Shown here one piece after another: positions 1-62,509 of a stretch of DNA of 64,000 nt. The stretch comes from Rusavskia elegans. Taxonomy: Eukaryota; Ascomycota; Lecanoromycetes; Teloschistales; Teloschistaceae. Position 1 is the first letter of the stretch, and each line of letters begins with the position of its first letter. Both the position numbers and the translations under genes were made by a program. The notes beneath the pieces were generated by a model. It worked only from the letters and a program-made list of their open reading frames with translations, searched no databases and was not told the origin of the DNA. Where the stretch lies: positions 1 to 64,000 of the forward strand of contig SAUG01000017.1 of assembly GCA_011316305.1 (NCBI GenBank), given 5' to 3'.

Positions 1-1054
1 CGCATAAGAATAAGGTGGGAGAAACCTCTCCTATCAGGATTGGCACTTTAAGCCAGCGGGCATCGTAAGCTTGACCTGCTCTAATTGTTTTGTACCGAAT
101 TGACAAAGGTGTTGTAGGGAATTCCGAAATAGCAAGGGCCTACTATCCTGGGACCGAGGTGAACCGAAACGCGAATCGTACTTGAGTAGCCTCCTGACCG
201 CCACTCAAAAGCAAAATAATACCACAAGAGGAGGAGCATCTTTTACGGCCGTCGAAAAGGCCAGGCTTATTCTAATAGGCCACGGCTCGCAGCCTAATCG
301 ATCTCGCAAAGCCGAAGGGGATGAAACCAGTGCCAAGAGAGCCGCGAAGTCTAAAGTATACAAGGAGAAGCTACTGAAGCAGGCCAAACTCGATGAAGAA
401 GGTCTGCGGAATCTAAGAGAAAGATTCTCCAGTGGCCCAACCGCGGAAATATCTACTATCCTTGGGGGCAATCAATCTGTGGCTGATAGATCTGCCGGTA
501 ATACATCCAAAGAGTTCGAAAGCAGCCACGAAAGTAGCGAGGAAGATAGTGAGGACAGTAGTGACGAGGAAAGTAGCGAAGAGGACAGCAGCGAAGGCGA
601 TAGCCACGAGGATGACCGCGCCGCTCCACCGTCCTTGACATATCCTCGGAGCCTCAATCAGTGGACAAGCCCACAATCGCGCGATGAAGCCCCCACTAAT
701 CGAGCACCAGAGGACACAGTCATGGAGAATAGCGAGCATCACAGTGACATCGACTTGCTCAACATCACACCACACACCATCGAAGACCGTTTCTACATAT
801 CGTCGGCAATCAATGTGACTGTGTGTGAATTCCACAAGCTTCTAGGTCTCAAAGGGCAAATGGTGGAGATTCCGAATGACAAATCTTCTTATCGAAAGCA
901 GTACGAGTACCTGCAGCGAAGATTCCAAGAACTATGGACCAGACAGCAGCTCCCTGGCCCGTGTCCAGCACTCTGTTATCGGAAACCATCTTTACAGACT
1001 TGGACACTTGAGGACATGCAATTTGCGGAGGTCGTCTATCCAAGGGATCGTTAA
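1..1054 (+). CDS. 3' exons of an RLN/RMP-family protein (5' end outside window)
   Basis: Partial gene cut by the window edge. I join 3-64 to 118-1054 across a 53-nt intron (gtaagc donor, ttgtag acceptor), giving about 332 residues in one frame. The joined part has the layout seen after the core in the other members: a linker, then FRNSKGLLSWD (compare FRKFGCCLTW at 36.0 kb and FRETTGMLSW at 22.8 kb), then NNTTRGGASFTAVE, equivalent to the N-[ST]-T-R...F-R-D-L-T-x-x-E block. A Ser/Glu/Asp-rich stretch follows, and the end carries the C-terminal domain (YEYLQRRFQELW...PCPAL...W). The core itself must lie upstream of base 1. No ATG opens the visible frame, so the start is not here. Two decayed relatives of this exon lie at 5.28 and 7.02 kb. 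Function unknown; family membership rests on aligned motifs and splice phase. Confidence 0.6.
65..117 (+). other. Intron of the partial gene
   Basis: The donor is gtaagc and the acceptor ttgtag, 53 nt long, with a ctctaat branch-like site. Joining keeps the frame (phase 2). An alternative acceptor at 108 also keeps frame. Confidence 0.5.
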
Positions 1055-2572
1055 GAAGGGACGGGCCCGATTGATATGGCTTTCCTACCTCGTGAGTGAT
1101 TGAATGTTAGCGCAAGCAGGGAGTTCGGTGGCTTGTTGCCAGAGGAGACGGCGATTCCTTTTCTCTGCACTTTCGTGCTTCATGGACGATTTTCTTTCGC
1201 TTCTTGAATGACTTTTTACGAAAGGCAGAACATAGACACTTTGCTAGCATGCACTCAAGCGTGCCACAAAGATACCTGAGAACAATGAACTCAAGCATGA
1301 ACGTTTGGATTCAGATTTGAGAAGGCTTCCATACATTTGAAAGCACTCAGTCAATCCTCTGTCCACATATCGATCTCGTGATAAGTAGCTCCACTTGTTT
1401 GAGACCCACTAAGCTCGCTGGTGACGAGTACTGCTGATACTTCCTACTCCCTTACATTCCCACGGCGACATGCTCTTTCAAGACCTTTTAGTGTCGTTGA
1501 CTCGCGTGCATACAATCAGTCCACGACTTTATACGCATCGAGGACTGGTGACAAGGACCCTGATCCCCTAAGACTCTCCTCTACGATTAGTAATCATAGT
1601 TATCATTGGTTTGGATTGCTCAGCACGCGCGCGTGCTCGCGTTAAAGTCACGTGAAACGTCCAAGCGGGCTTAGTGTCTACCTTGCTTGGCGCTCCTAGT
1701 CTGTAATTCAGGGTGGCCCTCGCAGCACACCACCTGGTGTGCGGATTAGACTTTCTCTTAGCATCAGTAACAGACCATATGAAATTGTCTAACAGCAAAT
1801 AAAGCATTCAATTATAGAAAGAAACACTCTAAATCGCTAGATCGACGCTCGAAGATAGGGACATCCTGGAAGTCAACGATCTACCCGTACCTTGATGCTA
1901 TCAATTGGGCACGGACCGAACGAAGCACCCCGAACGGCAACATCGTTATCTATCCTTATGCTGGAGTAGGGGGGGTTGATTTGGGAACCAATGAACTCGT
2001 TGATCCTGTATTCAGGAGATTTCCCCACCGAATCTTCAACACACCTGGCTATCAAAGTGACCTATGAGGTTACTGGACTCAAGCAACAACATCGTTGTGA
2101 CACCAGACTCATGCTCTGGTCGTTTAGAAGCGAATTTGGTGTTTCCCTTATAAGGAGGTCAGGGGCTAGCAGAACACCAACATTTTCTTGTTCTTTTCCT
2201 CGTCCAAAAGCACGCATAATTCATATAAAGCTTCACTATCGTCTAATAATCCTACTACTTCTCATCTCTACGTCACTTCAGCCCCGATGGAAAGATGAAG
2301 CATCTTCAGAGACGTCATATTCTAGTGGTCCTTCCCAATAATGTCAAGGTGTTGCCAATAATGGGTGCAGATATCAAGATTGCGTTCACTTTACGATGAA
2401 TAGTATCAAAGTCAACCTTTATTGAACCATCCCGCACAACTTGAAGAGTGAAGGCTCAGTGTATATCCAAAGCACGCCCTTAGTCCCCACTTTCATCACT
2501 GCTTGAATGAATGTCCTGTGGACTCCGACGAATACTTAAGCAGCGACCTCTCTCAGCTTTAACATCGACCTT
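1055..2572. other. Non-coding flank, no convincing gene
   Basis: Only short frames without ATG starts or recognisable domains are present. The piece around 1245-1300 (tagcatgcactcaag and neighbours) recurs, diverged, at about 9983-10045, so this 3' flank was copied together with family fragments. Confidence 0.5.
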
Positions 2573-2620
2573 CCATCTCCATCTCCATCTCCATCTCCAT
2601 CTCCATCTCCATCTCCATCT
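2573..2620 (+). repeat. (CCATCT)8 microsatellite
   Basis: Eight perfect tandem copies of the hexamer CCATCT occupy 48 bp in a pyrimidine-rich stretch. It lies just upstream of a decayed family fragment. Confidence 0.95.
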
Positions 2621-2837
2621 TCTGTTTTACTTTTATTTCTCCATGTTCAAGCGGCCTACTCTATATACATATCTCACCTATCATTCTCTATACATCTCGA
2701 AGTTCATTTCAGTCATATCACTCATTCCTAACTTTGACTTTCTTATAGTATTGTTTCTACCCTGTTAACATTCGGCTATCCCTTGTTTTCCTTTTCAAAT
2801 TTCAGAAGGCGAAATTCGCTCCGGATTATCTGCTCTT

Positions 2838-3322
2838 GATCAGGGCTGTTTACCACGACGGTCTCCGCCAACAGCTGCTAGTAGCTGCTGGAAAACCAGT
2901 CCACTACAGTCGGTCAAAAAACTCATCTGTGGTGCAACCCCTGCTAACACTGTCCATAGCGCATCCTCTCGAAGAGGCTTCAGTGCACCCGCCTCTGAAG
3001 TTGTCGCTCCATTTCTCGGTCTCGGGACTGATCTGGCGAGACCATCTGCGCCGGAAGGTGACGAACCCAAAAAGCAGGCGGTCCGCCCAAAGAAGGGAAA
3101 AGGATTGTCCCAGGATAGCAAAGCAATGAGCGGACGATGACAGTAAGGTAAGTGCTGAACCGAAAGATTCCCCAGACATCAAGTCAAGTACTTACAGTCT
3201 CCAGCTTCCGCAATCGAACTGGGGTCGACCCAAGAACCGAGTCGGGTCTCCCAAAGTGGAGAAGTCATTCTCCAAAAAGAGCACCACCGAGGAAAGTCTT
3301 ACTCCAGCCATTGCGGTTGGGG
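2838..3322 (+). pseudogene. Relic of an RLN/RMP-family gene (Y-H-x-x-I-R exon)
   Basis: After a gatcag acceptor-like site the frame reads AVYHDGLRQQLLVAAGKP, a clear match to AVYHQDIREQLIKDAA of the gene at 35.4 kb, and the DNA of the first codons is nearly identical. Downstream the reading shifts frame, passes through another open stretch (about 2923-3137) and hits stops in all frames near 3110-3146. A gtaagt donor at 3148, a ctccag acceptor near 3204 and a following open exon that ends in another gtaagt (about 3320) show that splice signals survive. The downstream blocks ii-iv cannot be found. I read this as a broken copy. Confidence 0.5.
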
Positions 3323-4029: not shown

Positions 4030-4978
4030 ATGAGCAACGGTTCTTCCTTTTACCAGCTGGATCCGGTCAACGATATGTGGGACCTTGTCGACGAGGCCCC
4101 ATATCTCGCCCAGGAAGAAGGTACTTGTATCTAGGTGCGCGAGGAGACGTCCGGGATAGAAACTATCAATGACAAATTGAGACCCGTAAGTGCTGCGACT
4201 ACCGGCAACAGCTATCAACCCAACTGCTCACCTTCCACACAGAACTCTTGAAAGTATCGCTGGGCAAGAAGATCCAGAGTAGGTAAGTACTACACTCTGT
4301 GTAAATACCAAGACTTTTGTCAGACAGCTTTACTAATTCTTATAGACCACACAGAACGGTTCTCACTGGACGTCCGTTGAAGATGCAGATCACGTTCAAC
4401 GCAATCTTCATCGCTTCTCTAACAACGAATCGCCACTCCCAAGCGACTCCAGATTAGAGGCAGGTACTAGACACAGCGTTGTCACCACAGAGACGGCTTC
4501 CACCGGCCAATTCGCAAGCTGTCTCGGCACATCACATGCAGCTAGCAATCCGAGGTCCCAGACGCAGTCGAGTCGTCGCGCCGTTACAGCGACAAATTCT
4601 ATCAGCCCGTTGAGAAAAGTAGGCGACCCTAGGTCTCGGATCTCTACCTTGGAAACCAGCTATCACTCTGCGCCAAGGGCCCTTGAACGCGAACGCAGTA
4701 TCAGAACAACGCTCGATCGATGGGAACATCATGGCTATCTCCCTTTTAATTGGAAGAGACACGTCGTAATCCATCCGGATTGTGATCGTACGCCACAGGA
4801 TCTTGCCCTCCAATTGCTGGTCTATGAGAAGCACTCGCGTAATCGACAACAAATGAAAATCGAGACTTTCCAGATATATGGTACCCCGGAAAGATACGAC
4901 TACGATCTGCGCAAGTGTTGGGTTCACTTTCAGGTGTGGTCGATGTACGACGTCATGTGGCCTCCGGGATACATATAG
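4030..4978 (+). pseudogene. Unrecognised gene or gene remnant, duplicated at 9.1-9.6 kb
   Basis: A possible first exon starts with ATG at 4030 (MSNGSSFYQLDPVNDMWDLV). A gtaagt donor at about 4284 and a tatag acceptor at 4345 frame an intron whose 3' half is almost the same as that of the copy at about 9274-9347. The exon from 4346 stays open for 210 codons to the TAG at 4976-4978, rich in Ser, Thr and Arg. The first exon cannot be joined in frame without extra assumptions, and the homologous exon at 9.35 kb is read in a different frame, so at least one copy is broken. A long open frame also exists on the opposite strand (5098-4532) but shows no domain. I do not recognise the product. Confidence 0.3.
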
Positions 4979-10344: not shown

Positions 10345-10352
10345 TTTAATTA
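10345..10352 (+). repeat. Left target-site duplication TTTAATTA
   Basis: Identical to 10694-10701 on the other side of the TIR element. Confidence 0.8.
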
Positions 10353-10693: not shown

Positions 10694-10701
10694 TTTAATT
10701 A

Positions 10702-12118: not shown

Positions 12119-14407
12119 ATGTCTGATCGAAAACCGCGAAGAAGTCCACCCAGGGCACCCGGCAGAAATGTGTCAGGTCAGTAGTATACCAAAATCCTCT
12201 CTGCATCAAGCGTTGACACTGATTATTGAAAGTGTTATCGCCGGGAACTTCCAGAAATGCGCCAACTTCCCAGTCGTCCACCTATACCACTTGGACATTT
12301 ACCCAACCTGCTGAGCAGCAGCAAGGCTCCGGCTCGACAGGCGACAATACGTCTGCGAACCAAGCTCGAGTGGCGAATAGGACCATCGCAGAGACAACCT
12401 TAAATAATTTCAGCGATGTCGAACTCCAAGGTGTTCTTTTTCGTTATTACCATCAACGTGATCCACGTAGTCGTCCCTCGATGGACGAAGTCCGTAATCG
12501 CCTCGCGACTTTGTTGGGTATTGTAGGACCCCGTGGCCTGCCTGCTCGGGACGCTGCCATACTCCTGGCTCAAGCGCGATGGGGTGCCACTGTGGCTCTG
12601 CGACAGTTCATCAATAACACTCGTCCCCAGCTTCAGCAAGAAGTTGGAAGAGTTCGAAACCCGCCTTCAGAAGGTTGGTGCTACCCAGCAATCTTCGAAA
12701 CTGTCAGTCCACTAACGGCGATCTAGACCATAAACCCGATCCTAAGGATGACGGCGACGATGGGCAGCCTATTCCTGCAGGAGTTGATATCATTGACATT
12801 GAAGATCCAACCCAGCCTCATCGCAGAGGTAGGCATCATTCATCAGAATGCTAGTTGAAACTTTTACTAATATGGTTTGACTGTAGCCAAGGCTGTCTAT
12901 CACCACCAGATCCGACGGTATCTGATTGAACGCGATCAACGTCGGTATGGCAACTACCGTAGGTCTTCCCCTAACAACAAACGGGCAAGACACTCACTAG
13001 CACAGGATATAAACGGACAAAAGGCAAGAAATTCGAAGATCAGACTGCACCCCATCCGAAACAGTTGCGCTGGGGTTTCGATAAGCGAGACAAGCAGAGA
13101 CACTTCCCAGCAGTAAGTCAATGCTCTCATGTACACAGGCTATCATCTGTTGATCTTCATTAGATTCTCTTCCGATACAAGAGAGCTGGATATGAAGACC
13201 CAGACGATGCCTTAGGTTTCATGCGGTGGCGTGGCCATTGGGTTGTTGATATCGATAGATTTCCACTCACAGACTTCACCCATATCCCAAGCACTCTCGC
13301 CGGCAATGTCGAAGGGGGGTTGCTCGAGGCGATCGAGCGACTCGATAGTCGGGTCAAGCATCAAGACCTCTCAGCGAGGCTGTTCAGCCCGAAAATCCGG
13401 GAACGTCCGACACCTGGACAATTGAAGGCGCGAGACAACAAGTTATCACAGGCGATGCGGTATGACTCGTGGCATAATTACTCTCTATATGGTCGGTCCA
13501 GCTAACGAGATGAAATAGTCGCTTCCGTGAGAGAAACGGCATGGTGACTTGGAAAAGTCCTCCAGGCGGCGGGGATGCTTACCAGAAATGGGTGGAAGAG
13601 AATCTACCGGCCCACCTGAAGGCCCAAAACACCACTCTTGGCTTCGGACCGCTTACACCTTTTCAGTTGGAAGAGATCAAAAGTAGCTCGATCGGGCAAT
13701 ACTCGAGCCGATCGAAGTCCGGGGACCCTGCCAAACGGGCAAAGTACCTCACCGAGCACAAGCTCAGACTGGAGCGTCTTCGGAAATCTGATATCAGAGA
13801 GCCCAAGAAATTTGATATCAAAAAGCTCAAGAAGTTTGATTTCAAAGGGCTCAAGACAGACTTGGCTGAGCCCATCTCCGATTCCGGGTCCGAGACCGCG
13901 ACCGACCACGACGGGCCAGACTCCCGTTACGACAACCCTCGGAATGCGGCGGAAGAGGCAGCACTCCACGACGCAATGCTTCCGACAATTCTGCAATTCC
14001 TCGACATCACTGGAGACCTGCCACTGATCGCTCACTGGCAAGCAAGTTATATGATAATCCTCCATGAAATCGACCGCCAGCTCCGCGATTGGGCGAAGCG
14101 CCAAGGTGTACCTCTTGTGGATCTTGTCGGGTATGGGTTTTGGACTGGGGGCATCATGAGCGTCCACTCTGCAAAGCTTGAGGCGACGCCGTTGGCGACA
14201 AAATTGGCCGAGATCGAGCAGGAGGAGGAGCAGAAGAAGAGACAGAGGGCGGCCGCACAGGGTGAGCTTGAAGAGGAGGACGAAGAAGACGACGATGTGG
14301 AGATGGGCGAAGATGATGAATCAGAAGAAGAGGAGGAGGGCGCGATGGATGAAGGAGACACCGATGACGAGGATGAGGCCGAGCACTCCGCCCAGTCGGA
14401 TGTCTGA
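12119..14407 (+). CDS. RLN/RMP-family protein, 654 aa, seven exons
   Basis: Exons 12119-12176, 12233-12673, 12727-12828, 12887-12958, 13006-13112, 13164-13459 and 13519-14407 join in frame to 654 residues. The introns are 47-59 nt with tactaat and gctaac branch sites. Block i is AVYHHQIRRYLIERD (about 203). Block ii is FPAILFRYKRAG (about 260). The core includes GHWVVDIDRF, GGLLEAIERLDSR and LSARL (283-333); its usual RMP is replaced by RLF. RFRERNGMVTWKSP follows at 360, then LKAQNTTLGFGPLTPFQLEE. The C-terminal domain (HWQASY...LRDW...FWTGG) is near 500-560. The last 90 residues are Glu/Asp-rich. Residues 75-165 (LPARDAAILLAQARWGATVA) look UBA-like, a weak inference. Function unknown; the acidic tail would suit a chromatin or adaptor role, but that is a guess. 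Confidence 0.75.
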
Positions 14408-15132
14408 CTTCCTTGGCTCCCGAGCCCTTGATCTCCTTTAGCCGAGTCGTAATGCTTGGAGTTATTTGGATAGACTCGCTGAGGTTTTGGTAGAAGACAT
14501 TACGAAGTCTGAATGCGAATTAATCTGATATCAGCCTTCTTGCCTGGCTTCCTTCTCTATTTGTGCGTTTGGACAAAGAGCAATTAGGCCTTTGTGATGT
14601 ATTTTCTGCGCTCTCACGTTCTTTTCCAGCTATACTAGGCTCTACACGATGGGGTTCATGGCCTCTTGGATGGGTAGTCGCTCTGCTTCTAAATCTATGA
14701 TCTCCAACTTTAGTGACCTGGCTCATGGCCCTCTTCATCATTTTCATTACATACTCGTCCACTTGCTCGTAAAGCTGCCGCCACATGACTAGGTTATTTG
14801 ATTTGGGATAATCAGGTGCTCACCCAATGTTGAGGAGCTCTTTCTACTCTAGGACATTCCCTGGGTGACATGACGTTGCAAGGAGTTGCGCGTCGCCATG
14901 CTTGGGATTCAACAGCATATCCCTTGTTCTACGCGACTTTCTGTCGATACCTTGGACTTCGACAACTTCCCCACCAACCAGTATATAACCACTGTTCCTC
15001 GTGTCTCTCATCAGTTATCAGCCCCCAAATTTCTTATAAATGCTGCCTTCGTGAACCCAGCCCATTTCTATTCTCATAAGTCCACCTTTTGGTTCCTTGC
15101 TCATCCAGCGGACTCTTGTTCCCACGACCACG
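14408..15132. other. Intergenic region
   Basis: Terminator and leader sequence between two + strand genes. No open frame here has a domain. The stretch before 15133 is pyrimidine-rich, as is usual for fungal leaders. Confidence 0.5.
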
Positions 15133-16665
15133 ATGGCGAAGAGTGCGAGAAAGCCACAAGCGAAGCATGTTCTGTCAGTCAAGAAGAAAAACACCGAACG
15201 CGTCAAAGAAAGCAGGGTCACAAAACCGGCTAGGAAATTGCCCACCAGAAACATACTTTCGACGCCTAGCAAACATGGCATGCGAACAAGAGCTAAGTCG
15301 ACGATGGGAAGCGATGAGCAAATTTCTTCTTATACACCTCCCAACAGAAAAAAGCCATCGGAAATCGATGAGGCGTATTACACGTCCTTGAGTCAAGAGA
15401 TCCAGAAAACGCCAAAAACACCCAAGTCGAGGAGAACGCCACGGACGAAGAGGGCTGTAGAGACTCCAGAGACACCCCCGAACCAATCGCCCGCCAACGA
15501 AAAGCGGATCAACATTACGTTTGTTTGGGATCTCCTCGCAACCGACCGGTCCTTTTGGGATACGATCCGAGAGACAAGTTCAAGCCAGGGATCTCCAGGT
15601 AGGAGCTTTGCCGACCAAGATATAAATCAAATCATGAAACGCCTCAACCGCCAAGTCGCCCATCGAATTGACAATTACAAGGTCGAGGACTACGGTTTCA
15701 TGTCGTCTTCTTCTTCTAGCGAGCATGACCCCCGTGAACAAAATCCGATCACAGAAGAAGAAAAGGGCGAACTTCAACTTGCACTATTCCCCTCGCTGCA
15801 GCACCTGGTTGAGTTGACTAAACGTCAGCCGCGCCGTATCGACACTAGTCTGTGCTATCTCGACCAATTTCGAGTACTTCACAAAGAGCTTCAGGACATC
15901 TGGCAATTCCAGGGACATGCCAAGGCCGTTCCTGCTCTCTTCCAACTCGAAGCTTGGAGTGGTGATATCATCGGCTGGCGTTCATCAAACTACACCAACG
16001 GCGACGAACGCTTTTCGGCCTCGGTCGTCGAGACGCGCTTTCAAAATTGGCGCGCCGAGATGCCGTCAACTTCTCCCATTATCGATTACAGCATGCCGGA
16101 CGTTGATGATTCCGATCTCGAAATGCAGTCGATCGATCCTCGCTACTACATCGACTCCTCAAGCCCACTTCACAGCCGTTCATCCCCTACTCCGCAAAAG
16201 GGCCACCGCCGCGTCATGTCCGCCCTCTACGACAAGGATCGCGACATCGGATTCCTCCCCACGCCACGAGAGATCCAATCCTACCAAGCTGGTGAAGTAC
16301 CATCCACTACACTGACTGGGCTTGGGATGTCAGACCCTGGCATCATTGATACAGATTCATCGGATCCCATTCAAGAAGCCTATCTCCGAGAGACTCCCGA
16401 TATTCGCATCTACGAAGAAGGGAACGCCACGCCGCTGCAGAGTAGTGACCCGCATGGTTACACGTCTAGTCAGGGAAGTGTGTCGAGTAACAAAGAAAAC
16501 AATCGGCGATTGATGGAACAAGTCATGGAAGAGCAACGACTAGAGGCGATGAGAGAACCTTCTCCGAGCAATAGCCAGGACAACATTGATCCGGCTGATG
16601 AGACCTGGGCTAGGAATGAGAGGCTGGGGGAGGTTTGGGAGATGGAGATGAGGAGCGATTTGTGA
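15133..16665 (+). CDS. Intronless 510-aa protein with the family C-terminal domain
   Basis: A single open frame from the ATG at 15133 (context ACCACGATGG) to TGA at 16665. An upstream in-frame extension to 15097 lacks an ATG. The first 120 residues are Lys/Arg/Thr/Pro-rich with repeated TPK/TPR words, a likely disordered, DNA- or nucleus-compatible tail. Residues 217-290 match the C-terminal domain of its neighbours: ELQLALFPSLQHLVEL, then LHKELQDIWQF, PALFQLEAWSGD and IIGW. Blocks i-iii of the family are absent, so it is a related but truncated architecture. The remainder is Ser/Asp/Pro-rich. It lies 725 bp downstream of a full member, in the same orientation. Function unknown. Confidence 0.75.
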   Translation: MAKSARKPQAKHVLSVKKKNTERVKESRVTKPARKLPTRNILSTPSKHGMRTRAKSTMGSDEQISSYTPPNRKKPSEIDEAYYTSLSQEIQKTPKTPKSRRTPRTKRAVETPETPPNQSPANEKRINITFVWDLLATDRSFWDTIRETSSSQGSPGRSFADQDINQIMKRLNRQVAHRIDNYKVEDYGFMSSSSSSEHDPREQNPITEEEKGELQLALFPSLQHLVELTKRQPRRIDTSLCYLDQFRVLHKELQDIWQFQGHAKAVPALFQLEAWSGDIIGWRSSNYTNGDERFSASVVETRFQNWRAEMPSTSPIIDYSMPDVDDSDLEMQSIDPRYYIDSSSPLHSRSSPTPQKGHRRVMSALYDKDRDIGFLPTPREIQSYQAGEVPSTTLTGLGMSDPGIIDTDSSDPIQEAYLRETPDIRIYEEGNATPLQSSDPHGYTSSQGSVSSNKENNRRLMEQVMEEQRLEAMREPSPSNSQDNIDPADETWARNERLGEVWEMEMRSDL

Positions 16666-21926: not shown

Positions 21927-23965
21927 ATGTCAGACATAGATAAGGAGGACAGTGATTCTATGCAAGAGCACGATACGACAATCTCTGAGGGTTCTCAAAT
22001 CGAGAACGAGGAAGACTACATCTTACCTGACGGTGCGGTCGTCAAAGCAATTCGACATGAACATATACGTGCCGAGCTACTCCAAGCAGCAGAAGCTAGC
22101 TATGAGTGGACCCATCCGCAGCCTCACGGAGAGGCGCCAGACGACCGTACAGCGCCGGTGGCTTTCCCTGCTGATCAATTAGACGTGAGTAATGTTCTGC
22201 ATGTTTCTCAGACCTACATTCTTGGCATGTTGAGCATTTGGTGCATCCACGAAAATAACGATCAGATGCCCTGCGGATGGATTGCATGGTACATGATGAA
22301 TAGTGAACGGATGACCGCACCCCAGCAATACAGATTCATAATTTGACGTGATCCTGTGCAAAACTTAATACTGACATTGGGAACAATACAGTGGGGATGG
22401 ACAAGACAATTATACCCACCCATCAACTTCGTTCTGGAGAAGGGGGAATACAAGCACCCGGATTATGAAGTGCAAGACTGGTACCACAAGGGGAGACTTG
22501 TTCTTGACCTTGATGGCAGACGCATGAGATATTTCCATCATTTGCCGGTTGTCTGCTCGACGAACATCCCAGGCGGCCATATTGAGGCTCTAATGCGTCT
22601 CGACGATCGAACTACCTATGCAGATATCAGAGGGAGAATGCCACCCAAGATGGTCGTCAAATGCAAGGGTGTTTTGAAGGAAAAGCCGCAGTGAGTGTTC
22701 GAAACTCCTTCTTGGTGACCCGTTGGGAAGTCCCCTCTTCATACGCTGTACATATGAAATTCAAGATGGAGCAGGTGTTAACACATACTAGAAAAGGAAC
22801 AAATGCTTTGAGCGCCGCAGCCAGAGTATTTCGCGAAACTACGGGAATGCTCAGCTGGAGTCTTCGAGCAGGCAGCGATACATTCAACAACTACATCCTA
22901 GAAAATTTGCCTGCAGACTTATAGGCGAGGAATACCACTCGTGGGTGGCGCGACATTGTAAGCAGAGCTCAGAGATAATTTTTTCCTTAGCTTTGCTGAC
23001 ATCAGGATCAACTCTAGTCGAAAGCTGAGATCGCAACCATCCGAGAACCGACTATAGGCAGCAGACCGGAACAAGCCCGGAAGCGGTCTTCTTCAGGTAA
23101 GGCGCGAGCATTGCGAGAAAAGAACATCAAAAAGCGAAAGGCGGCGGCCAGTGCCGAACGGGAAAAGGCTGTCGCAAATGATGGAAGTGACGATGACCTT
23201 ACTATAGGCGATGCAGATGGTTTAGATGAGAGCGACTTCTCAGAGATTGACGAGCTCATGGACGAAGCTACCGCAGATTCCAGCACCATGTTCACCGACG
23301 TTCCAGATATCAGATTGAAGATACCCTCTTCGGCCGAGGAAGTTATTGCGCTCCGCGACGCCCTCATCGGCACCATACACCAGGCGAGGACTGTACTTGG
23401 GGAGTTCGCGCCGGTTATTTACGAGCCGCATTCATACGCCTGGCAGGTCGAAAGTATCCAAAAACAATTCGGAGAGAAGTATGAAATTTCGAAACCTGGT
23501 CAAGGGAAAGCACCTACGTTGATACACCTGACTTTTTGGCCGGGTGGCATCCAAGACTGGCGATTAGCCAGATTCTGGGACGGCTCGGCTGAATACTTAG
23601 TTGAGGAGGATGGTACGGTTGGCTCACGGTATTCCCTGGGAAGCACAACAGAGGAGACCTCGGATGACGATTCAGCTGGAGAGTATCTTGTGGATGCTGG
23701 AGGAAATTGCAGTGAGGCACAGCCGGGCAGTGGTGAGACTTCAGAGCACACAGTTGCGCCGGCGATCTTCGAAGATGGAAATGCCATGGTGGATCAACGC
23801 TCCCATGATGGGGAAATGCGTTACGGTCCGGGAGGGTTGCTCGACTGGAGAGGGGTCGCAGATCAGGAGAACGAACAGGCTGGAGGAACCAGACAGGTCG
23901 GGATGTCAGAGACATCGGAAAGCAACAATCGTGACTTGGATGGGGACATTCTCGAGGAATCATAA
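21927..23965 (+). pseudogene. RLN/RMP-family gene with an internal TAG stop
   Basis: Exons 21927-22184, 22392-22690, 22792-22957 and 23018-23965 join to 557 codons, with a TAG at 22922-22924 (codon 230). The frame is otherwise consistent. Block i is degenerate (AVVKAIRHEHIRAELLQAA). The core is strong: GRLVLDLDGRRMRYFHHLP, then EALMRLDDR, YADIRGRMP. FRETTGMLSWSLRAGSD and NTTRGWRDI follow, and the stop falls just before this block, where the 12-kb gene has LKAQNTT. The C-terminal domain (PHSYAWQVESIQKQF...PTLIHL...FWPGGIQDW) is near 360-410. Intron 1 is 207 nt, unusually long, and may hide a lost exon for block ii. A shortened protein of 229 residues could be made; I judge it a recent pseudogene or an allele with a nonsense change. 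Confidence 0.6.
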
Positions 23966-43300: not shown

Positions 43301-43535
43301 CGGTACTCCCGATCGAGATTTTGAGGACTTCATGTCCATTATGCCGAAGAAAGAATCGCCGCCGGGAGATGCTGCTGGACCTGATGACCATTTGAATGAG
43401 AACGCTTGGCAACAAGATCCTCGAGATTCGCCGGTTCATGATGGAGGAATCCACCAGCTTTTCGGTGATATGGAGGATAAGCCGCGAGGTAACGACGTCC
43501 TAGCGCAGCTACAAGTTTTCGATGAGGAACGCTGA
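40332..43535 (+). CDS. RLN/RMP-family protein, about 1049-1067 aa, core introns lost
   Basis: One open frame. ATG 40332 (MSSQDTSPPLEAK) was chosen over the in-frame ATG at 40002 because the duplicate at 44595 also begins MSS. A 54-nt piece at 40459-40512 has intron signals (gtaagt...acacag) and, being a multiple of three, leaves the frame open either way. A coiled coil spans about 95-150 (DDLTEERDDAHKALERAQRR). Block i is WEPAAYHHERRLGLFAREA (about 370). Block ii is TAYHPHYANINMSVREG...HLLYQWDPP. The core is GILLLDANNHPIFDWPELPK, EYWWRLNRHIRIEDVLARCP (455-505). Then come RIMPNKVLAEI and TTTFFRDLTPKE (about 560-575). The C-terminal domain (HELEGWLKNK...LPVLHPW...WYGGWDAW) is at 790-825. All five introns present in the core of the neighbour are absent here. 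Confidence 0.8.
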   Translation: MSSQDTSPPLEAKNGNNLPGGARGNFHNGQPGVHGPQVNPERSKLFQSSMAGVYYLQQDTVDRPARVQRALNHVAIPGPDTARVRPASGVHLAPGRDNASIEITEDEHKELDDLTEERDDAHKALERAQRRLDDAQQRVSRRLQRARVLCDSSNFRTNQQLHSVTSAMDTNSRFTTTSSLGKRSNDDRGENKDENGSLQAGSRTRRRPNSEHTTEFSGPPHTSAGNALRSLHTLGRRRHLHPAPSMKPPGPQAGTFYEAFTHGGAASTYDDSYLQDHLPNPFSTTVHTQQPKETPDYPFNAISVTGKRSRDDGDTTDGASGNGDEGPNVAQIEEPQKVMPLTKRQKKRQGMVSEGKDIPKDDEKVKGVVKVEDGNLFHHHNGKWEPAAYHHERRLGLFAREAVKGIYTYPPTAGTKEEDKTAYHPHYANINMSVREGRPHLLYQWDPPKEQAPFIHPGLMRDPEDGILLLDANNHPIFDWPELPKTISAQVEGFWLEYWWRLNRHIRIEDVLARCPEMTQRKDSTLYRPIATRSAYGNSRSKDRLAAGTRSWEQKEGSKEIKAQYERIMPNKVLAEIAHRGTTTFFRDLTPKETSAICHINKGKGTAPSRAGNKKLNEAKKQERKAKSDPELEAIYRRLLREKHDADRLDPRWAQEGGPDPGWAFPDPAAGSARLGTATTTGYGQPVNTQIPGPANNTGDDTTFLEDEGDTTLVENDQTSSANHGFYQYYAPTQSNSQCGGAEGSIAQQGITGNTTYPGPGYHWLVPNTPQEKLSITNALENARQSCRVMTRDDPPKTNANDCYMNQFHELEGWLKNKLSSTDPGKALPVLHPWTNWYGGWDAWNSMDLNYDDLQLFEYQSHGKFNQETNTGKKPERKQHTLGLDFDSAHIRIRHDQGILAPNKIRALKDSLKDDLATVRKDPTSSAKAGAPPGYAAAKSLQHAAEPDRPLWEMTVIQQPNEFDGPLYQMEGNPTFSQDQNAIFDSAEFFGTPDRDFEDFMSIMPKKESPPGDAAGPDDHLNENAWQQDPRDSPVHDGGIHQLFGDMEDKPRGNDVLAQLQVFDEER
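40459..40512 (+). other. Possible intron in the 5' part of the 40.3-kb gene
   Basis: It has a gtaagt donor and a gacacag acceptor at phase 1 after N-P-E-R. The same position and phase carries an intron in the gene at 34785 (after D-S-E-R). Its length (54 nt) keeps the frame. Confidence 0.6.
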
Positions 43536-44594: not shown

Positions 44595-47500
44595 ATGTCG
44601 AGTCACGGCAGACGTGGAGGCGTGAACACCCAGGGGACAGCCCCTGGAAACACGCAACGGAGACACATACCAGGTGATGTATATGGGTACTTCCAAGTTG
44701 ATCCCCAAGCCCCAGCAGGTATCCAGAGGCGTCCGACCGACGAGCGTTGCACGTGGGAAAATCTAGGTCTCAATGACCACACGGCAGTAAATCAGGATAA
44801 TTCAACGCAGGAACCATCTTCAGCTATAGAGTTAACGCAGAACAACCATCCTACATACGGTCAGCAGCCATCGAATCAACGAACAGTTCCAGACCGAGAT
44901 GCCACAGAAACAGAGCAGGACGAGTTGGAGCACCTTGAAGCCGAAGCAGCGGAAGCTCAACTTGCCTTGGACCAGGCACAACGCGTGGCTAAACAAGCAC
45001 AGAAGAGCTTGGACGATGCTTACCTACGTATCCAACGACGAATGCAAGCCACTCATAACCATCATGCATCAACGCGGCAGGCCAAAATGGTCTCTTACAC
45101 TGGCAACCCATCGGCGAGAGAAGTCACAGGGCTTCTGGCATCTGTACCTCCTTATCCTGCTCATAGCAGTTCGTGTCTCAATGGGACAACCGCTTTCGCA
45201 CCTACCCCGTCGAATAGGAAGAGATCGACAGACGAACGTGACGATGAAGCTCCCCTCGACGCAGATGGACAAGGGAGAAGAGTCAGATCAAAGATAGACA
45301 TGGGATATCCAGAAGCCCATGTTCAGTCAAACACAAGTGCCAGTAGACCCACCTATAGAACAGGTGGATTGGTACCTCGGAGACACGAGCATCCCTCACA
45401 ATACATACGAGCCAATCGTACGGCTAACCGTATCGGGTCTTCCCAGCCATTCATGGCCATCAACAATATGTTGGGGAGGATGCCAAGTATCAACACCACA
45501 ACTCAACCACAAGAAAGTAATTCTTTGCGGGATGAGCATCTCCTAAACCTCGACACCTCTGATTCCCATTTCAATTCTCCTCTGCAGACACATTCAGACA
45601 ACCTAGGAAATAACGTCCAGTCGTGGGCTGATAGGTCTTCATTTGCGGTCCAGCAGGCTTTCGGTAGCAATCTCACAGGATTCCGAAATACTCAAACACC
45701 AGCTCTTGTACCAACTCGGCGATACATACCTACTTACCATCGATCGGACTCCTCAGATCATCCAGACATGCCTCGAAAGTCAGCGACTGGCTCACAATTC
45801 GACACATCGAGACGTTCGATACAATCTACCCAGGATACGACCACCAGCAAATTCAATCCGAAGAAGCGTCCGCGAGCTACAAAGATTTCGACAAGAGACG
45901 AAACGGCGAACGAGGATGACGACAATTCTGAACCACCGCGGGAAAGTAAACGGCAAGTAAAACGCGTACGGTTGGAAGCACAAGGCGTCGAACTGCCCAA
46001 AGACACCGAAAAGGCTATGGGAAAAGTGTATCAAGACAGAGCTGGCAACATCTATGTCATTATTGACGGCAAAGCTGAGTATGCAGCCTTCCACAACCAG
46101 CGAAGGCTCTCCTTGCTCGCTCGTGAGGACGCCAAGGGTCGGTACAGTAAGTGGAAGCCCTTGTCGAGAAGCTAGAGCGTTGCGTGCTGACAGAAAACAG
46201 GATATCCTCTGGAGCATGGTTTGTACGAGGACGACAGAACGGCATTCCATCAGGATTATGCGAACATTAATCTGGCGAATCGGCATGCGAGGCCAGATTT
46301 GCTGTTTCAGGTACGTGAATCATGTCCTAACAGCATTATACTGTGTATCCTTGTTCGAGGGCCATGCCGTTGGCACGGTAATGCTGACTTGACAATGATC
46401 CTAGTGGAACGGCCCCAAAAAGGGTCGATTTGAACATCCTGGTTTCATGCGCGACCCCGACGACGGGAAGGTGCTGCTTTCCAAGGAGCGACACCCTATT
46501 CTAGATTGGCCTGAGCTGCCAAAGGTTCTAAGCAGCCAGGTCGAAGGTCTGCTCCTAGAATATTGGTGCCGCTTGAACCAGCACATAAAGATCGAAGACA
46601 GTAAGTGACTCAGACTATACTATCCTGGATCATACAGGCAGCAATACTGACTCAACCCGTTTCTAGTAGTCGCAAGATGCCCTGATAGAAGCCGGAAAAA
46701 CGGTAGTTGTAAAATACAGGCACTTCTCCAATCTGCGTACGGCAACCGTAAGCAGGAGGCACGCCTCCAAAATGGAACATGTGCCGTGAGTAAAGCGTGG
46801 ATCCCTTATTATGAACAGTATTGACGTGGGATATAGTGGCAGATGAAAGAGGGTAGTCGCGAAATTAGAGCCGCGATGGAAAGCGTCATGCCGCAGAGAG
46901 TGTTGGACGAAAAAGCACAGAGCAACACGACTCGCAGCTGTAAGTACAACACCATTGCACATTTCTCTGTCTTCTCCCTAAGTCAATGCGACAACGTGCT
47001 TTTTCCAAGGAGTGCTGGCTTACATTATTTGCAGGGCGCGACCTCACCAAAGATGAATCCGACGCCATCAAATTCGCGAACAAAGGGATCGGGAGTGCGA
47101 TGAAAAGAGCTGGTAATCGAGCATTGTCCGAAAAGGCAAAAAAGGAAGTCGACGCGATAAAGAACCCGAAGGCAGCTGCAAATCTCCAGCGCCTCCATCA
47201 AGAGAAGGCAGTTGACGATGCACGATATGCAAGAACGAGAGTCAATCCCGGTCTGCTACTTCCGAATCCACCAACAATCCATTCCCTTCATCAGCTACCC
47301 CTAGCTCCTTCCCAAGGAGCTCAGCAGCCGCCCTATCCTGCCCATCGAGTTCCCCAGGGTCTCCCACAAGGAATCCCCCAGGTGACCCGAGCAGCCCGAC
47401 GACCTTTCCGGAGTCATCCACACAGCCACGCACGAAACGGTGCAAAAACCACTAAGGCAGTCCAACAAGTGGCCGACGAGGGCGACACGACCCTGGTAGA

Positions 47501-48302
47501 TGATGACGGACAGTTGGACACAATTAATCCAGCAAAGATTATACGAGAGCCTGAAAAGAATCAGGACTACAATGCTGCTATTAGCTATATCAGTATGGCC
47601 CCTTACCAACCAGCTGATATCCGCTACTTGATTCCTTCGGTAGAGGAGCAAAGAGGCACCATCACAAAATCACTCGACATTACTCGAAAAGCGTACAAGA
47701 CGCTCACTGGCAAAGGAGCCCCGATGACCGACGTGTTCCAGAGTTATATGTATCAGTGGAACGAGATACAGCAGTCGGTCACTGATTTTTACGAGCGAAG
47801 TCGTCGCAATCAGAAGGTTCCAAGGCTCTTTCGGAGACCCGCGTGGTACTTTCGATGGGACGGCTGGACAGAGCAGAAAGTCACTGATCTGCCACCCATG
47901 GGGAATGGACCCGAGCTCCTCGAAGCAACGAAGGGTGTTTCCCCGCCCCCGGATTATGAGCCTGCATCACTGACAACAGAGGCTGCCGAAATTGCGGAAC
48001 CTGGCATGTTGGCACTCACAGATCTTATTCATCTCTCGCCACGTGGAAATTCCTCATCGTCGTCCGGAGTGGAGATCAATGGATCAGGATTCCCACCAGT
48101 GTCCTCAAAGTCGAACAACATTCTTAATTGGGATCCGATGGCGGATGATCCGAATGATGATGCCAAGATTGGCGAAACGGAGGAGAGCTCAGGCCTTAAC
48201 CCTTCGTTCTGGGATCAATACGATATAACCCTCCAAGGAGTCGACCTCGAGGGATTCGACTTCCAAGCGGCATTTGATGAGCTGGATCGCAATGCTTCTT
48301 GA
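44595..48302 (+). CDS. RLN/RMP-family protein, 1115 aa, six exons
   Basis: Exons 44595-46146, 46201-46310, 46405-46600, 46667-46785, 46837-46939 and 47035-48302 join in frame to 1115 residues (an optional 45-nt intron at 44674-44718 would also keep frame). The introns are 51-95 nt. A coiled coil is at about 95-140 (LEHLEAEAAEAQLALDQAQR). Block i is EYAAFHNQRRLSLLAREDA (about 497). Block ii is TAFHQDYANINLANRHA...DLLFQ. The core is GKVLLSKERHPILDWPELPK, EYWCRLNQHIKIEDIVARCP (565-625). MPQRVLDEKAQSNTTRSWRD, LTKDE follows (about 670-700). The C-terminal domain (QSYMYQWNEIQQSV...VPRLFRRPAWYFRWDGW) is at 920-970. It is the tandem duplicate of the gene at 40.3 kb and retains the ancestral introns. 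Confidence 0.8.
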
Positions 48303-50537: not shown

Positions 50538-50752
50538 GATCCCCCACGCTGCACTGCCCCACTCGGCGCTTAGCAAGGCTGTGATTGGAGTCAAGTACAA
50601 CAAAAACACTTTTCCATCTCTTCTTCTCTTATCTATAGTTTAGAGCAGTGTCGCATCTGGCATGGAGTACCAAGTGTCGTGAGGATGCAGTGGAAGCATC
50701 ATAACAGTGTATATTTGGATGTCTTAACCTCTATCAATGGCAGGTGGGCGTA

Positions 50753-53700
50753 ATGGATCCTAATGATGACTGGCCAGGTGGTCTACCAATTTACCACCGT
50801 CCAAGACCAGGACAAGCCCATCAGCCCAGCGCAGTTTCTTCATACCCCGGTGGTCAACCTGTGCCTCAGACGAATGTTCTTGCGCCGTACAATCATATCT
50901 ACCAGCCTTGGCAGAATCAATTCTCCCAACAGCCTCCACAATATTACTCTTCCCAACAGCCTACACAGTCTTACCCGTATCGATATCAGGATGAGCGGTA
51001 CAATCGGGACTCTGAGGATTCTCGGAAAAATACTTCGGCTCAGGACTTTTATCTCAGCAAGGAGAACGTCCGCGAGGTGGTCGATTTTCTTCAGCAAGAT
51101 TGTATTGAACCAATTCTCGATACTTTTTTGAGAATGGCGGACCCTCTTTCCATCGCGGCGTCCGTTCTTACCGTGGCAGGAGCTGGAATCAAATTGACGA
51201 CTGCCCTGTACACACTGGTGGATGCGATGAGAAATGCAAATGTGGAAATTGAGCTAATGACAAGTGAGATCACAGTCTTCTCCTGCACCCTTGATGAGGT
51301 GCACGACCACATGACAACATCCCGGTCACTGTATTCCACCAATCTCATGACAAATCTCAAGAAGTTATTGGAGACTTGCACGAGAGTCTATTCTGAGATA
51401 GAGAGGATACTGAAGCTCGGTAAAGCTGGGAAATCGTACAGGCTGACCAACCATTTGATGTGGGCCTTACGTCGCGAAAAGCTTAGGCCAATGCGCTTAA
51501 ATTTGGAGTCTCTGAAAACGACCTTGATGGTCATGCTTCAGACAATGAAGATTGTCAAATACAAGGCTAAGATCCAGGACCAGTGAGATCAGCTTGTCCC
51601 GCATCCATGATGCTTCTACTGACGACGGTAGGCAAAGTTTGGATCATAATGAGTCTGACCAACCAGACGGAGCGCCAAGGCGGACTCAAGAATTGCAGGC
51701 TTTACAGCAACGTGAGCGTCAAACTCGCCTACGCGCTGAGGCCTTGGTCATCGCAAATTACTGGGCAGTTTTACAATCTCAAGAAGCATCCCAAGCTGCA
51801 AGCCAGCAGGGACTCCTTACGCAAGGTCCCGATTCGGAGACGTCGAGTTCTATGGAGACAAACCTATGGCTCTGGCAAGTGGTTCCTTACAGGCCTCCAG
51901 ACCACGAGCATCGGATCCATGACCGACAAGCAATGGCATTTGGTAGCATCGAGACGGCTTCAACAAAGAGTCTCCGGACCAGTGCATCGAAGACAGTCCA
52001 CCAACTCGTGAAGACCTGGACAAATGATGTCTCAACGGGGCCGAACCAAAAAAGGTCGAGCTCCGGAGGCCAGCCAAATGCTGATATCTCGCAAGTTCCT
52101 CTCGGTAGGGTCCTGAGGCCTTTAGCAGGTCAGGAATTGGGAATTCCCCCTGAAAACCCCAGGCCTCAGACAATAAGCCAAAGTGAGGTAATAAACAAAG
52201 ATGATGGAGAAACGGTGCAAAAAGCCCACTCACCAGAACTAAATCCCACCAATGATCCGCAAGTACAGCATCCTACACGTCGTGATGAGTCTCAGCATGG
52301 ATCAGAACGTGTCAAAACAAAAACGGCAAGGGTGCAGAGCCCGGGTTTTTCTATAGCATCGGACCCACCGTACAAAATTACCATCGACCACACCTCGCGA
52401 GATTCGGACTCACCGTACAAAATTACCATCGACCACACCTCGCGAGATTCGGACTCCACAGTCGGCAGTGTCCATGATTCGCCTATCTCGCGGCGTACAT
52501 CATCCTCGTGGGAACAGGCGACTGGTGAAGATTCTGCATCAGAACGGCAAGGGAGACTCGAAGCGGCCGATAAGCTTGAAGACAGTGACTCCTCTAAGGA
52601 ATTTGACCGTCATCGTGACAGCACCCGACGGCATCGCCCTCCGAATCCATTTCCAATGGATCAAGCAAGAGCTGATCCCGTTCCATCTCTTCCGCAAGGG
52701 CCCAACACGCTGACGCATACATTCCCACCGCCGCCCTTATACCCTTATTACCCAGGCTTTCAAGCCACACCTTCGTTACTCCCAGTCCCAGCGCCAGGGC
52801 TGGTCCAATCTGGAGTACCAACAACCAACGGTCCGGACGACGATAAGAAGTTCGCACGTCTTGAAAAGCTGATGATGGACTTCAAAGAGGAGCAAGCTGC
52901 AAGGGAAGCTGCAGAGATCAGGAGGAAAGAAGATGAGAGAGTTGCTGAGGCAGCTCACGCTCATGAAAAATCATTGCTGGAAAGGGAGCGAGCTGTTTCG
53001 GATATCGAGAAAGCGGCGAAGAAAACGTCCGGGGTAAAGCAAGTAATCAAACTCAAAGACCCGCTGGGTCGTAATCACAGATTTCCATTCGCCAATTGTA
53101 GAACGTGGGAGGTAAGCTACCAGCTATTCAGCCATGCGATGATCCTACACCCATGCAATTTGTTCAGGGAATTCACTCTTTGATATGCGATGCCTTCTTA
53201 CACGTAGAAGGGCTTGGACCGCATGTCTCGGAAAGTCATTACGATCTGATGGACCCCTCCGGTAACATCATACTGCCGTCGATCTGGGAGGACGTCATCG
53301 AACCGGGGTGGACGATATCAATGCACATATGGCCAATAGGAGAGTCTCCAGGCCCGGCGCACGTCCCATCAATCCATGAAACAACGGAAGTGAGAGGAGT
53401 CCCTGTACCATCGCCTCCTGTATCACCTCCAGAAGCGTCGCCAACTCGCAATAAGAAAGATAGTATGGTTTACCGTCGAGAAGCTGTGGGCGTACTACCT
53501 CCGAACCCACCTTCCAAGGTATCCAAAAACACGAAGTGGAGAGATGCAGAATCTGAAGACGACTCTTGCAGCACGACTATATCAGAAGACTTGAAATCCG
53601 ACTTTATGCGAATGTTGGAAAAAGTAGAGCTCTCGGACCTTCAGCAGTGGTTAGAGCACAAGAAATTGGTACTAGAGGAAAGAGCAAAACAGGCAACAGC

Positions 53701-54193
53701 TCAAGCCTCCACGGTCGACTCGTACACCGGACCATCCGAGACTGTCCCACCACAGCAAGCCTTGCCAACACCGAATTATGCCTTCCAAGATATGGGAGGC
53801 AAACGAAGGATTGAGGAGGCTGTATCAAAAACCGACACTGAAGAGCAACTCGCTCGGCTCGAGCACTTACTACTCGAAAGCAAACGTGATCATGATGAGA
53901 AAGAAGCGGCCAAGCAACGAGCCGAAGAGCAAGCCTACATCGACAAGCTGAACAGCCAGATAGCACAAAAGCAAGCCGAACTTGATGCTCGGGATGCAGC
54001 AGCCCAAGCTCAAAAAGACGAAGAGAAATTTGCGAGGATTGAGAAATTGATTTTGGATCGAAATAATGGCCCATCAGCTACGATGTCGACGAGTCCGCTA
54101 CTTACGTCTCCGCCATCTGACGCGTCGAGGCCGGATTCATCCAAATCTGGGCATCGCTCGCTTCGAAATCGAATATTTAGTCGCGGATCGTAA
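50753..54193 (+). CDS. Helo-like N-terminal and ULD-like domain protein, 1111 aa
   Basis: Exons 50753-51582, 51632-53111 and 53168-54193 join in frame; the introns are 49 and 56 nt. Intron 1 (gtgaga...ggtag, ctgac branch) resolves an apparent frame change. The first 127 residues are Pro/Gln/Tyr-rich. MADPLSIAASVLTVAGAGIK (from 128; an ATG at 51134 is an alternative start) begins a helical domain like the Helo-like N-terminal domain of fungal STAND proteins, to about 277. A charged linker follows, with RLRAEALVIANYWAVLQSQE. At about 745-828 is an ubiquitin-like (ULD) module: LKDPLGRNHRFPFANCRTWE, ICDAFLHVEGLGPHVSES, YDLMDPSGNIILPSIWE, VIEPGWTISMHIWP. A coiled coil follows near 900-1080. Such proteins are common in fungi; I infer a scaffold or regulated-assembly role. 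No NACHT domain is fused. Confidence 0.8.
52367..52456 (+). repeat. 45-bp perfect tandem duplication in coding sequence
   Basis: Two identical 45-bp units (52367-52411 and 52412-52456) encode a doubled PYKITIDHTSRDSDS in the linker of the Helo/ULD gene. The unit is a multiple of three, so the frame is kept. Confidence 0.9.
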
Positions 54194-60031: not shown

Positions 60032-62509
60032 ATGGTGCAAACTCGAAGCACCAAGATGGTGGAGGACCCTTTGGCCCCTAGTAATGAACGTCCGGCCGCT
60101 GTCAATTCACCGGCTCGATCCTCTGATAGCACGCAAGACGACCCATCGTTGAGCATCGGCGGCGAAGGTGAGACCCTTGAACGCCATGGCAACCCTTTAG
60201 TAGACAATCCTTCCGAAACAGCCCAAGGATCACGCTTGGGTAATCCATCAGATTCAGGTTTGTCTTCAGTCCCAATGCCCGAAGATGACTCTAACCACCT
60301 GACGTCCAAAGGAGAGTCAGACGATGAAGGTATGGCTCCTCAACACCATGGCAGCCCTCTAGCCAACAACTCCTCTGCACCGACCCGAAAACGACGCTTG
60401 CGTACCCCATCAGAGTCAGGGCTGTCTTCAGATGGAATGTACAAAAATGAAGACGAAGAAGAAGAATCTAACACAGGATCCTTCTCTGAAGACGACGACG
60501 AAACAATTTCCGAAGACACTCATCGCGGAGATCGTAGACGTGCGAAATCAGGGAAGCCTGCACCCAAGCGCCATCCCAACGCACCTCGCATCAGCAAGCT
60601 ACAGAAGAGGATCCAAGATGCGAAGGCCATGGGCGTTGATCTCGACGAGAACGGCGTACGGAAAGGTCGAGTCAGACATGCAACCAATGGCCTCGAGTAT
60701 TTCGGCGAAGGGGAATGGATACCAGCGTGCTATCACACCGATATCCGGAAGAAGCTGCTGGAATTGACCGATGATATGGGCAGCTACGTCAAGGAGCCTC
60801 ACCGAGGTTGGGATGAATTAGATCGCACTGCGTTCGAGGAGTCGCAAAAGGACTGGGTTTTCTCGGATCGTCGGCGACGCCCAGATGTTTTGTTCCTTTG
60901 GGAGGATCCTGGGTATTATCCGGATTACGATCCTGAATTTTGGTATGACTTGGGAAGAATTGTTCTTGATACCAAGAACCATCCTTTGAAACTTGTAAGT
61001 GACCCACTTCCCGTGACTTATCAAAACTGAAGCTCCATGATTTCATTACTGACTTCATTCACAGTGGAGAGAATTGCCCTTGACCATCTCGGGACAATGC
61101 GAGGGATATCGTATGGAAACCTGGCGACGGCTTAACACACGGATCACCATGTAGGTCCCTCGACACGCTTCCCCCCTTCCCTTTTGAAATCAATACTGAC
61201 CGCGTATCTGCTAAAGGAACGACCTGCGTGCACGTATGCCGTATCAGACCTGCAAAGGGGAAGGCAAGGTCTCCAAAATCATTAAAACGCCGATGCTAGC
61301 CAACCGTATGTCTCGAGACCGGATGATGTACGGACTCAAGGCTTGGGATCCAAAGCAAGGATCAGATATCAAGCAGTATCGCATGATGCAGACGATGCCC
61401 CAAGTGATCCAGCGATTGCTCATTCGCACCAACAGCACCAGAGGCGTAAGTAACCCCTCCCTATTCATCTCCCCATTCATCTCCCCATTTATCCCATCAT
61501 TCATCAACAATTCAATACTGAGTGAATATAGTATCGGGATCTCACCGAAGCAGAAGTGGACTACGTCGATCTCGGCAACAAAGGCACTGCAGCCAGCCTA
61601 GCCAAAGCTGGACCCAGACAGCTGGACGACACGACGCGCCAAGAGAACCAGCAGAAAAAATACAAAAGGTGGTCAAAGAAGATCGGTGCTTCTTCAGTCA
61701 AAATCCACGAGGTTATCGCGGAAGCCTTCGCGGAGGGACTCGACGAGCCTAAGAAGAAAAAGCAAAAGACTCGTGCTCGGTCTACAGCCAGCCCTGCTGC
61801 CCCTGCTTTAGTGTATCCAACGATGGACCCTGGGGAAGAGGAGGATCGGGTGGGCCATGGTGAGGAGATGATTGATGAACAGTCTGGTCGTAGAGGTGGG
61901 GAGATACCTGAAATGTTCGAAGAAGAAGAGGCATGGTACGAGCGGCCTGACCTTCTCCCTGCTGGACGGAGCACTGAGAACGACTACGCACACAACAACC
62001 GCCCTCGTGGTTTCTCCTCCAATACACCAGACTCCTACAACATGACTATGCAGCGCGTTGCAGAACGGAATTTTGATAACAATCCCTACAACAACACATA
62101 CAACAACAACCCTCAGGCTCCCTCCGATGCTCAACTGCAGCGCCTTGGATTCCAACGCGTCCATGGAGGGCATCTCGGCATCGATTTCCGCTACAGAAAA
62201 CCAGAGTCTGTCTCCGATGTGACCTTCATCCAGAACGCATTGCAGGTCAGCCGAGACGACTTCCAACGCATCCTTAAATTCGCTCCAGCCACTATCACAG
62301 AGCGTCTTCAGCCATACGCCTATCAGCTCAGCGAGCTGCAGGCCGAGTTCAGTCGGACCTATCCGGGACCGAATCCTCCGTTGCTGCGGTCGTGGGGCCA
62401 TATGAGTTCTTTTGAGAATTATATGGGCCGTCAAGGGGGTTCTGGTGCTGGGTATCGTGGGACTCGTGGTCATGGGTTGGGTGATTTCGATGGGAATACT
62501 TTGCTCTGA
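60032..62509 (+). CDS. RLN/RMP-family protein, 751 aa, four exons
   Basis: Exons 60032-60994, 61065-61150, 61217-61445 and 61532-62509 join in frame to 751 residues; introns are 66-86 nt. The N-terminal 215 residues are acidic and carry an internal duplication: HGNPLVDN...GNPSDSGLSS and HGSPLANN...RTPSESGLSS, the second preceded by a basic KRRLR. Block i is EWIPACYHTDIRKKLLELTD (about 230). Block ii is TAFEESQKD...PDVLFLWEDP. The core is GRIVLDTKNHPL, then WRELPLTISGQCEGYRMETW, RRLNTRITMNDLRARMP (305-357), interrupted by introns after K-L and inside I-T-M. IRTNSTRGYRDLTEAE follows at about 418. The C-terminal domain (YAYQLSELQAEF...PPLLRSWGHM) is at 675-720; the tail is Gly-rich (GRQGGSGAG). 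Function unknown. Confidence 0.8.

Follow-up and report, generated by a model that had tools for sequence, protein, structure and literature searches.

Lineage-specific genes of Neurospora are described, in an excerpt of PMC10684091, as clustering with HET genes and as aggregated next to telomeres. Fungal allorecognition regions of the HET and NOD-like receptor (NLR) kind have relics and NLR-type and PigL_N genes nearby, as does the gene cluster reported here. We analyzed a 64,000-nt stretch of the lichen-forming fungus Rusavskia elegans (the window; C71:1-64000, where C71 is contig SAUG01000017.1 with 153,249 bases, in an assembly of 44.16 Mb and 217 contigs), which carries most of an array of about ten related genes of one protein family, M0 to M9. 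Hypothetical proteins of Teloschistaceae (L6R38_004613, XPA_007870, Q9178_006734) belong to the same family as relatives of its members at 40332, 64750 and 34785; their locus tags are often neighboring, and their listings give no functional name or Pfam domain.

The protein family is real and, as far as database and literature searches reach, undescribed. A preliminary description had grouped the window loci into one family, and that grouping holds: a profile of a ~270-residue core, built from 36 aligned sequences belonging to the 40332 and 64750 groups, matched every named locus (M2 at 21927 exon by exon only, e.g. 22347-22691 with 39 bits, E 1e-10), and window frames from most loci were linked to each other in an all-against-all protein comparison. 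The family extends beyond the window on C71 to 64750 (M8) and to a partial frame at 115566 (M9). The family features, in window coordinates unless stated, are as follows.

1-1054, + strand: M0, 3' part (exon to 64, intron 65-117, exon 118-1054); 488-residue model, core 128 bits
2749-7431, + strand: M0 relic, broken, in pieces; protein identity 73% and 52%, DNA identity 82% and 67% to M0
12119-14407, + strand: M1, 7 exons, 648 residues; core 116 bits, splice sites candidates, those of the first intron ambiguous
21927-23965, + strand: M2, core in exons (exon matches); in-frame TAG in the core at 22922-22924
34785-36881, + strand: M3, 5 exons, 630 residues; core 145 bits, relatives across Teloschistaceae
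38009-39228, + strand: M4, 2 exons, 385 residues, core within one exon; 136 bits, AlphaFold core
40332-43535, + strand: M5, single exon, 1067 residues; core 457 bits
41334-42296, + strand: M5 core domain, residues 335-655 (core profile, AlphaFold model)
42561-42884, + strand: M5 C-terminal Trp-rich module, residues 744-851; 124 bits on the C-terminal profile, which has M5 among its rows
44595-48302, + strand: M6, 6 exons, 1115 residues, nearest window relative of M5 (tree); core 348 bits
60032-62509, + strand: M7, 4 exons, 751 residues; core 263 bits
C71:64750-67263 (L013:750-3263): M8; core 440 bits

The core scores are those of nine joined models (M0, M1 and M3 to M9), which leave aside M2, the 2.7-kb relic and a further minus-strand relic at C71 119.4-120.6 kb (core profile and reading of the DNA; best piece E 4e-4). 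M5 is itself a row of the core profile and M8 has close relatives among its rows; M9 reached 162 bits. Joining raised M7 to its 263 bits from 106, 56, 28 and 27 for the separate exons. The relic piece at 2749-3126 gave a weak profile match (E 0.57), and M2 is probably a pseudogene, judging from its stop codon. The supposed fragment at 1-1054 is in fact half a gene, the 3' half, split at the point where C61 abuts C71: the 5' part lies at the end of C61, which stops mid-codon, C71:1 completes the codon, and the R-M-P block reads in frame across the last bases of C61 and the first of C71. The start of the 488-residue M0 model is uncertain, and the core profile found no match with E<1 in the terminal 65 kb of C61 besides the M0 exons.

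Most of the exon joins hold; they rest on GT-AG sites and one database protein, P0077, an automatic prediction that agrees with the M3 join through a 38-base mini-exon. The proposal that introns fall at equivalent places is borne out at core position 73 (phase 1) in M0, M1, M3 and M6, at 51-53 (phase 1) in M0, M1 and M3, and at 202 (phase 2) in M0 and M1, but not in M4 and M5, which lack a core intron, as do M8 and the M9 frame. Both M6 and M7 have an intron at core position 247, in differing phases. The intronless M5 adjoins its intron-bearing relative M6, and because the intronless M5 group joins M6 in the tree (support 0.978), M5 arose either by intron loss or as a retrocopy. The motif blocks are looser than first proposed: the full N-[ST]-T-R-x-[YFW]-R-D-L-T-x-x-E motif matches exactly only in M6 and M7 among the window models, and R-D-L-T is absent from M0, M1 and M3. 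Likewise, the Trp-rich C-terminal domain is clear in M5, M6, M7 and M8 but weak in M0, M3 and an M2 exon and doubtful in M1 (E 0.018), and the C-terminal profile gave no match in M4 or the partial M9 frame. A module of this kind without a core occurs in an open frame at L033 (C106) 4059-4973, with 31-46% identity to M8-group proteins.

Database protein searches from M5, M8 and M3 returned 19, 18 and 47 proteins, 84 in total, and all 66 of those with a source name come from Lecanoromycetes. This restriction could widen, as all the searches require shared 5-residue words and those from M5 and M3 scored no more than the ~8,000 candidates with the most words in common. Genera that we take to be Teloschistaceae account for 64 of the 66; the others are P0081 of Letrouitia leprolyta (Teloschistales) and P0083 of Lecanora helva (Lecanorales). 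In a profile search the Lecanora helva protein ACLMJK_007965 (324 residues) has a core like that of the family, with 28% identity to M3 (E 7e-38), and no C-terminal Trp-rich module visible by eye. The closest named relatives of window proteins are from Xanthoria/Rusavskia (P0001 93%, P0020 95%, P0038 93% and P0077 99%, the last partial). Alignment A2 holds 35 of the 37 database proteins known at that stage, and alignment A4 holds 58 of the 84. A FastTree phylogeny of 82 of the 93 cores (11 were omitted for short core matches) places M3 (support 0.844), M5 with M6 (0.999) and M8 (1.0) in separate clades with long branches between them. Relatives of M5 from Gyalolechia sp. 2 and Ikaeria branch outside M5 and M6 and may predate the split of these two.

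By locus tag, read from search listings, the neighborhood of M3, M5 and M8 looks kept. Relatives of M3 and M5 are 1-2 tags apart in nine of the ten assemblies listing both (on different contigs in the tenth, a Calogaya), and those of M5 and M8 are 3-7 tags apart in five of six (on different contigs in Squamulea squamosa); in Xanthomendoza sp. 1 (Q9186) the M3 and M8 relatives lie on different contigs, which is uninformative for order. Core identity exceeded flank identity in all 22 hand-chosen pairs, for example 86% against 62% between M3 and Gyalolechia marmorata. M3, M5 and M8 are therefore old relative to Teloschistaceae and constrained in the core, as their family-wide clades, the long branches between paralogues, the locus tags and the excess of core over flank identity all argue; this evidence of age covers these three and not M0, M1, M2, M4, M7 and M9. 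The rapid birth and death first suggested is not supported for these three, while death is visible in the relics, the stop in M2 and the dispersed pieces described below. The family shows some turnover, in the intronless M5 beside M6, the relic copies and the dispersed fragments.

No known domain had been recognized in these proteins, and our searches gave none. Among 36 members Pfam matched once in one member (E 0.032), among 11 members its best E was 0.1 and NCBIfam matched none, and PDB sequences gave no match to family members. Pfam scans of window frames and members contained no zinc cluster, bZIP, HMG, APSES or homeodomain. In the literature searched no listed title describes the family, and XPA_007870 appears in none of the papers. 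The structural check proposed in the preliminary description, with AlphaFold models of M5 and M4, gave no significant Foldseek match to solved or viral structures. The prediction that the core folds is a confident one, although no relative with a known structure was detected. In the model of the M5 core and C-terminus, the core blocks are mostly near or above a predicted local distance difference test score (pLDDT) of 90 (whole-model mean 72, predicted template modeling score (pTM) 0.58), and the M4 core reached pLDDT 86.5 and pTM 0.80. Both models, which were not superposed, have the same order of elements, with three short predicted strands followed by helices. The most basic of 13 elements is the helix at 168-182 of the M4 model, with a mean net charge of +3.9 and at least +2 in 92% of 60 rows. 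Every one of the 60 rows has Arg at 139, 152 and 179; among rows with a letter at the position, all 52 have Arg 35, 58 of 59 have Arg 218 and 55 of 56 have Arg 75. Because of this basic helix and the fixed arginines, contact with phosphate or nucleic acid is suggested. K-[KR]-x-[KR] motifs occur in seven of the nine models, a coiled-coil-like stretch is visible by eye in M5 and M6, and a crude hydropathy scan of the nine models found no membrane-like stretch, with no 19-residue window above 1.4 on the Kyte-Doolittle scale.

We tentatively favor, at a probability of about 0.38, the reading that the cluster consists of old, separately kept tandem paralogues of one family, restricted as found here to Lecanoromycetes, that may act as nuclear nucleic-acid-binding regulators. 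The proteins, probably nuclear, would consist of the folded ~270-residue core and, on either side of it, disordered linkers bearing basic motifs. The core would bind nucleic acid, DNA first, via an arginine-lined surface; the helical Trp-rich C-terminal module of several members and the coiled coil would bring partners together, and each paralogue would regulate its own set of targets. Several points weigh against this. First, Foldseek matched the models to no solved nucleic-acid-binding fold at a significant level. Second, the kept His, Asp, Thr, Asn and Glu beside Arg would equally suit an enzyme. Third, the kept order rests on locus-tag numbers. Fourth, K-[KR]-x-[KR], a kind of motif that arises by chance, is missing from M0 and from the partial M9 frame. 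At last, M0 and M4 have short, moderately hydrophobic starts (8-residue means of 2.04 and 1.76).

A self-recognition role for the family, proposed earlier, is possible, mainly on account of the divergent M8. In its full form, which we consider unlikely at about half the weight of the regulator reading, the cluster would be an allorecognition region in which one or more members, foremost M8, are old allelic lineages, and NACHT-ankyrin and PigL_N/ULD_2 neighbors trigger cell death. The M8 core is 96% identical to a Rusavskia elegans protein but shares only 60% identity with Xanthoria aureola, which is thus as distant as Gyalolechia (61%) and Squamulea (62%), whereas for M3 the core reaches 95% identity with X. 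parietina. These two comparisons, however, draw on different species within the X. parietina group, and M5 has an intermediate core (84% to X. mediterranea). The tree sets an X. aureola group of M8 relatives apart. Trans-species alleles at 64750 are suggested by the identities but not supported by the approximately unbiased test, in which a tree holding the Xanthoria/Rusavskia rows together was not rejected (p 0.117). Allorecognition is also favored by the NACHT-type and ankyrin frames (C71 92.5-97 kb), by DUF7708 and DUF7025-AAA genes in the vicinity, and by PigL_N and ULD_2 inside the cluster; the NLR-type neighbors point weakly to self-recognition. However, HET, NACHT and NB-ARC turned up in none of the 36 and 11 members scanned with Pfam, so that the proposed likeness of the members to NLR proteins is not borne out, and the other members followed look constrained.

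Somewhat less probable again is an enzyme family, for example of nuclease or nucleotidyl type, whose substrate would be invading or mobile nucleic acid and whose active site would be made up of the kept His, Arg, Asp, Asn, Thr and Glu. The kept polar residues are indeed spread over the core, at 14 positions (H31, R35, D61, T63, R75, D109, R139, D148, R152, R179, N212, T214, R218 and E224), each in at least 88% of rows with a letter, but they may merely hold the fold; the sequences matched no enzyme family, and the fold search gave nothing significant.

It is improbable that the family derives from a mobile element, was multiplied by transposition and was partly domesticated. Besides the intronless M5 beside M6, this would account for relics that genome searches with member or relative proteins, and one with DNA, found on contigs other than C61 and C71. 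C101:102.9-109.1 kb (L029 2952-9098) holds nine DNA pieces of M1 (3), M8 (3), M6 (2) and M7 (1), 74-92% identical, on one strand and in an order scrambled relative to the cluster. Further pieces derive from M8 at C101:438.1 kb (93%, on the strand opposite to the mosaic), M3 at C171:228.6-229.5 kb (82-85%), M1 at C181:245.1 kb (87%) and M6 on C75 (102 bases, 75%). In a comparison aimed at paralogue sorting as the source of the M8 divergence, pieces of the M8-like relic on C101 favored different partners between M8 and the X. aureola protein. A neighboring 10-kb stretch gave 45 matches, 42 to one ~300-base repeat and 3 in ABC transporter frames, and no mosaic; it is a weak control, being a single stretch of 10 kb set against a 13.7-kb query (5 matches). 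The ~300-base repeat (L014:1960-2266) has inverted ends and many copies across contigs. The relic fragments, however, are not whole copies but stretches of DNA from several genes, and one M1 piece reaches into an intron and was therefore copied from DNA. Intron positions are moreover common to paralogues, locus tags are neighboring across genera, and Pfam scans of 36 and 11 members listed no transposase or recombinase domain, including the Starship captain (DUF3435). The indices of the dispersed-relic stretch (0.61 and 1.26), in what we take to be their usual meaning, do not resemble repeat-induced point mutation (RIP), as against 1.33 and 0.26 for the island at 24.4-28.1 kb.

Very improbable is a scheme in which the cluster and the C101 mosaic would form one diversity- or silencing-generating system of lichen allorecognition built on a new domain, the mosaic storing same-strand fragments of M1, M6, M7 and M8 as gene-conversion donors into M8 or as a transcribed small-RNA trap against cluster members. 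Equally remote are fast-evolving secreted effectors in a birth-and-death array, since the tandem array with relics and a RIP-like element and the moderately hydrophobic starts of M0 and M4 stand against the absence of a hydrophobic start in seven of nine models (crude hydropathy scan), large proteins with basic motifs and, for the members followed, conserved cores in old clades; secretion is not supported by this crude scan.

The other features of the window are listed below.

15055-16665, + strand: protein with a stretch like the C-terminal module and no core (C-terminal profile E 4e-5, weak; BLASTP E 1e-4 to M5)
24701-28044, no strand: AT-rich, RIP-like element, a non-member neighbor; direct repeats like long terminal repeats, 24701-25090 and 27655-28044, 81%
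50705-54193, + strand: PigL_N, then ubiquitin-like ULD_2, non-family frames within the cluster (Pfam)

A genome search gave no other match for the 15055-16665 protein. A fungal rhodopsin lies at 29637. Farther right on C71 are Rit1, a reductase-type gene, a CDR-type ABC transporter, GT8, a sugar transporter, DUF7708 and DUF7025-AAA, and the NACHT-type (NPHP3_N) and ankyrin frames (L015:8501 to L016:3007, C71:92501-97007) lie between the main cluster and M9.

If the regulator reading is true, lichen-forming fungi own a protein domain of their own, with separate paralogues in a seemingly kept neighborhood. A conserved family restricted, as found here, to Lecanoromycetes is a candidate for lineage-specific regulation or self-recognition. 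Unlike HET/NLR proteins, its members matched no HET, NACHT or NB-ARC, and those followed are old and constrained. The likeness to the Neurospora genes, as the excerpt of PMC10684091 presents them, lies in taxon-restricted genes near self-recognition genes; whereas those genes are telomere-adjacent, the Rusavskia cluster consists of one domain family with neighboring locus tags across genera.

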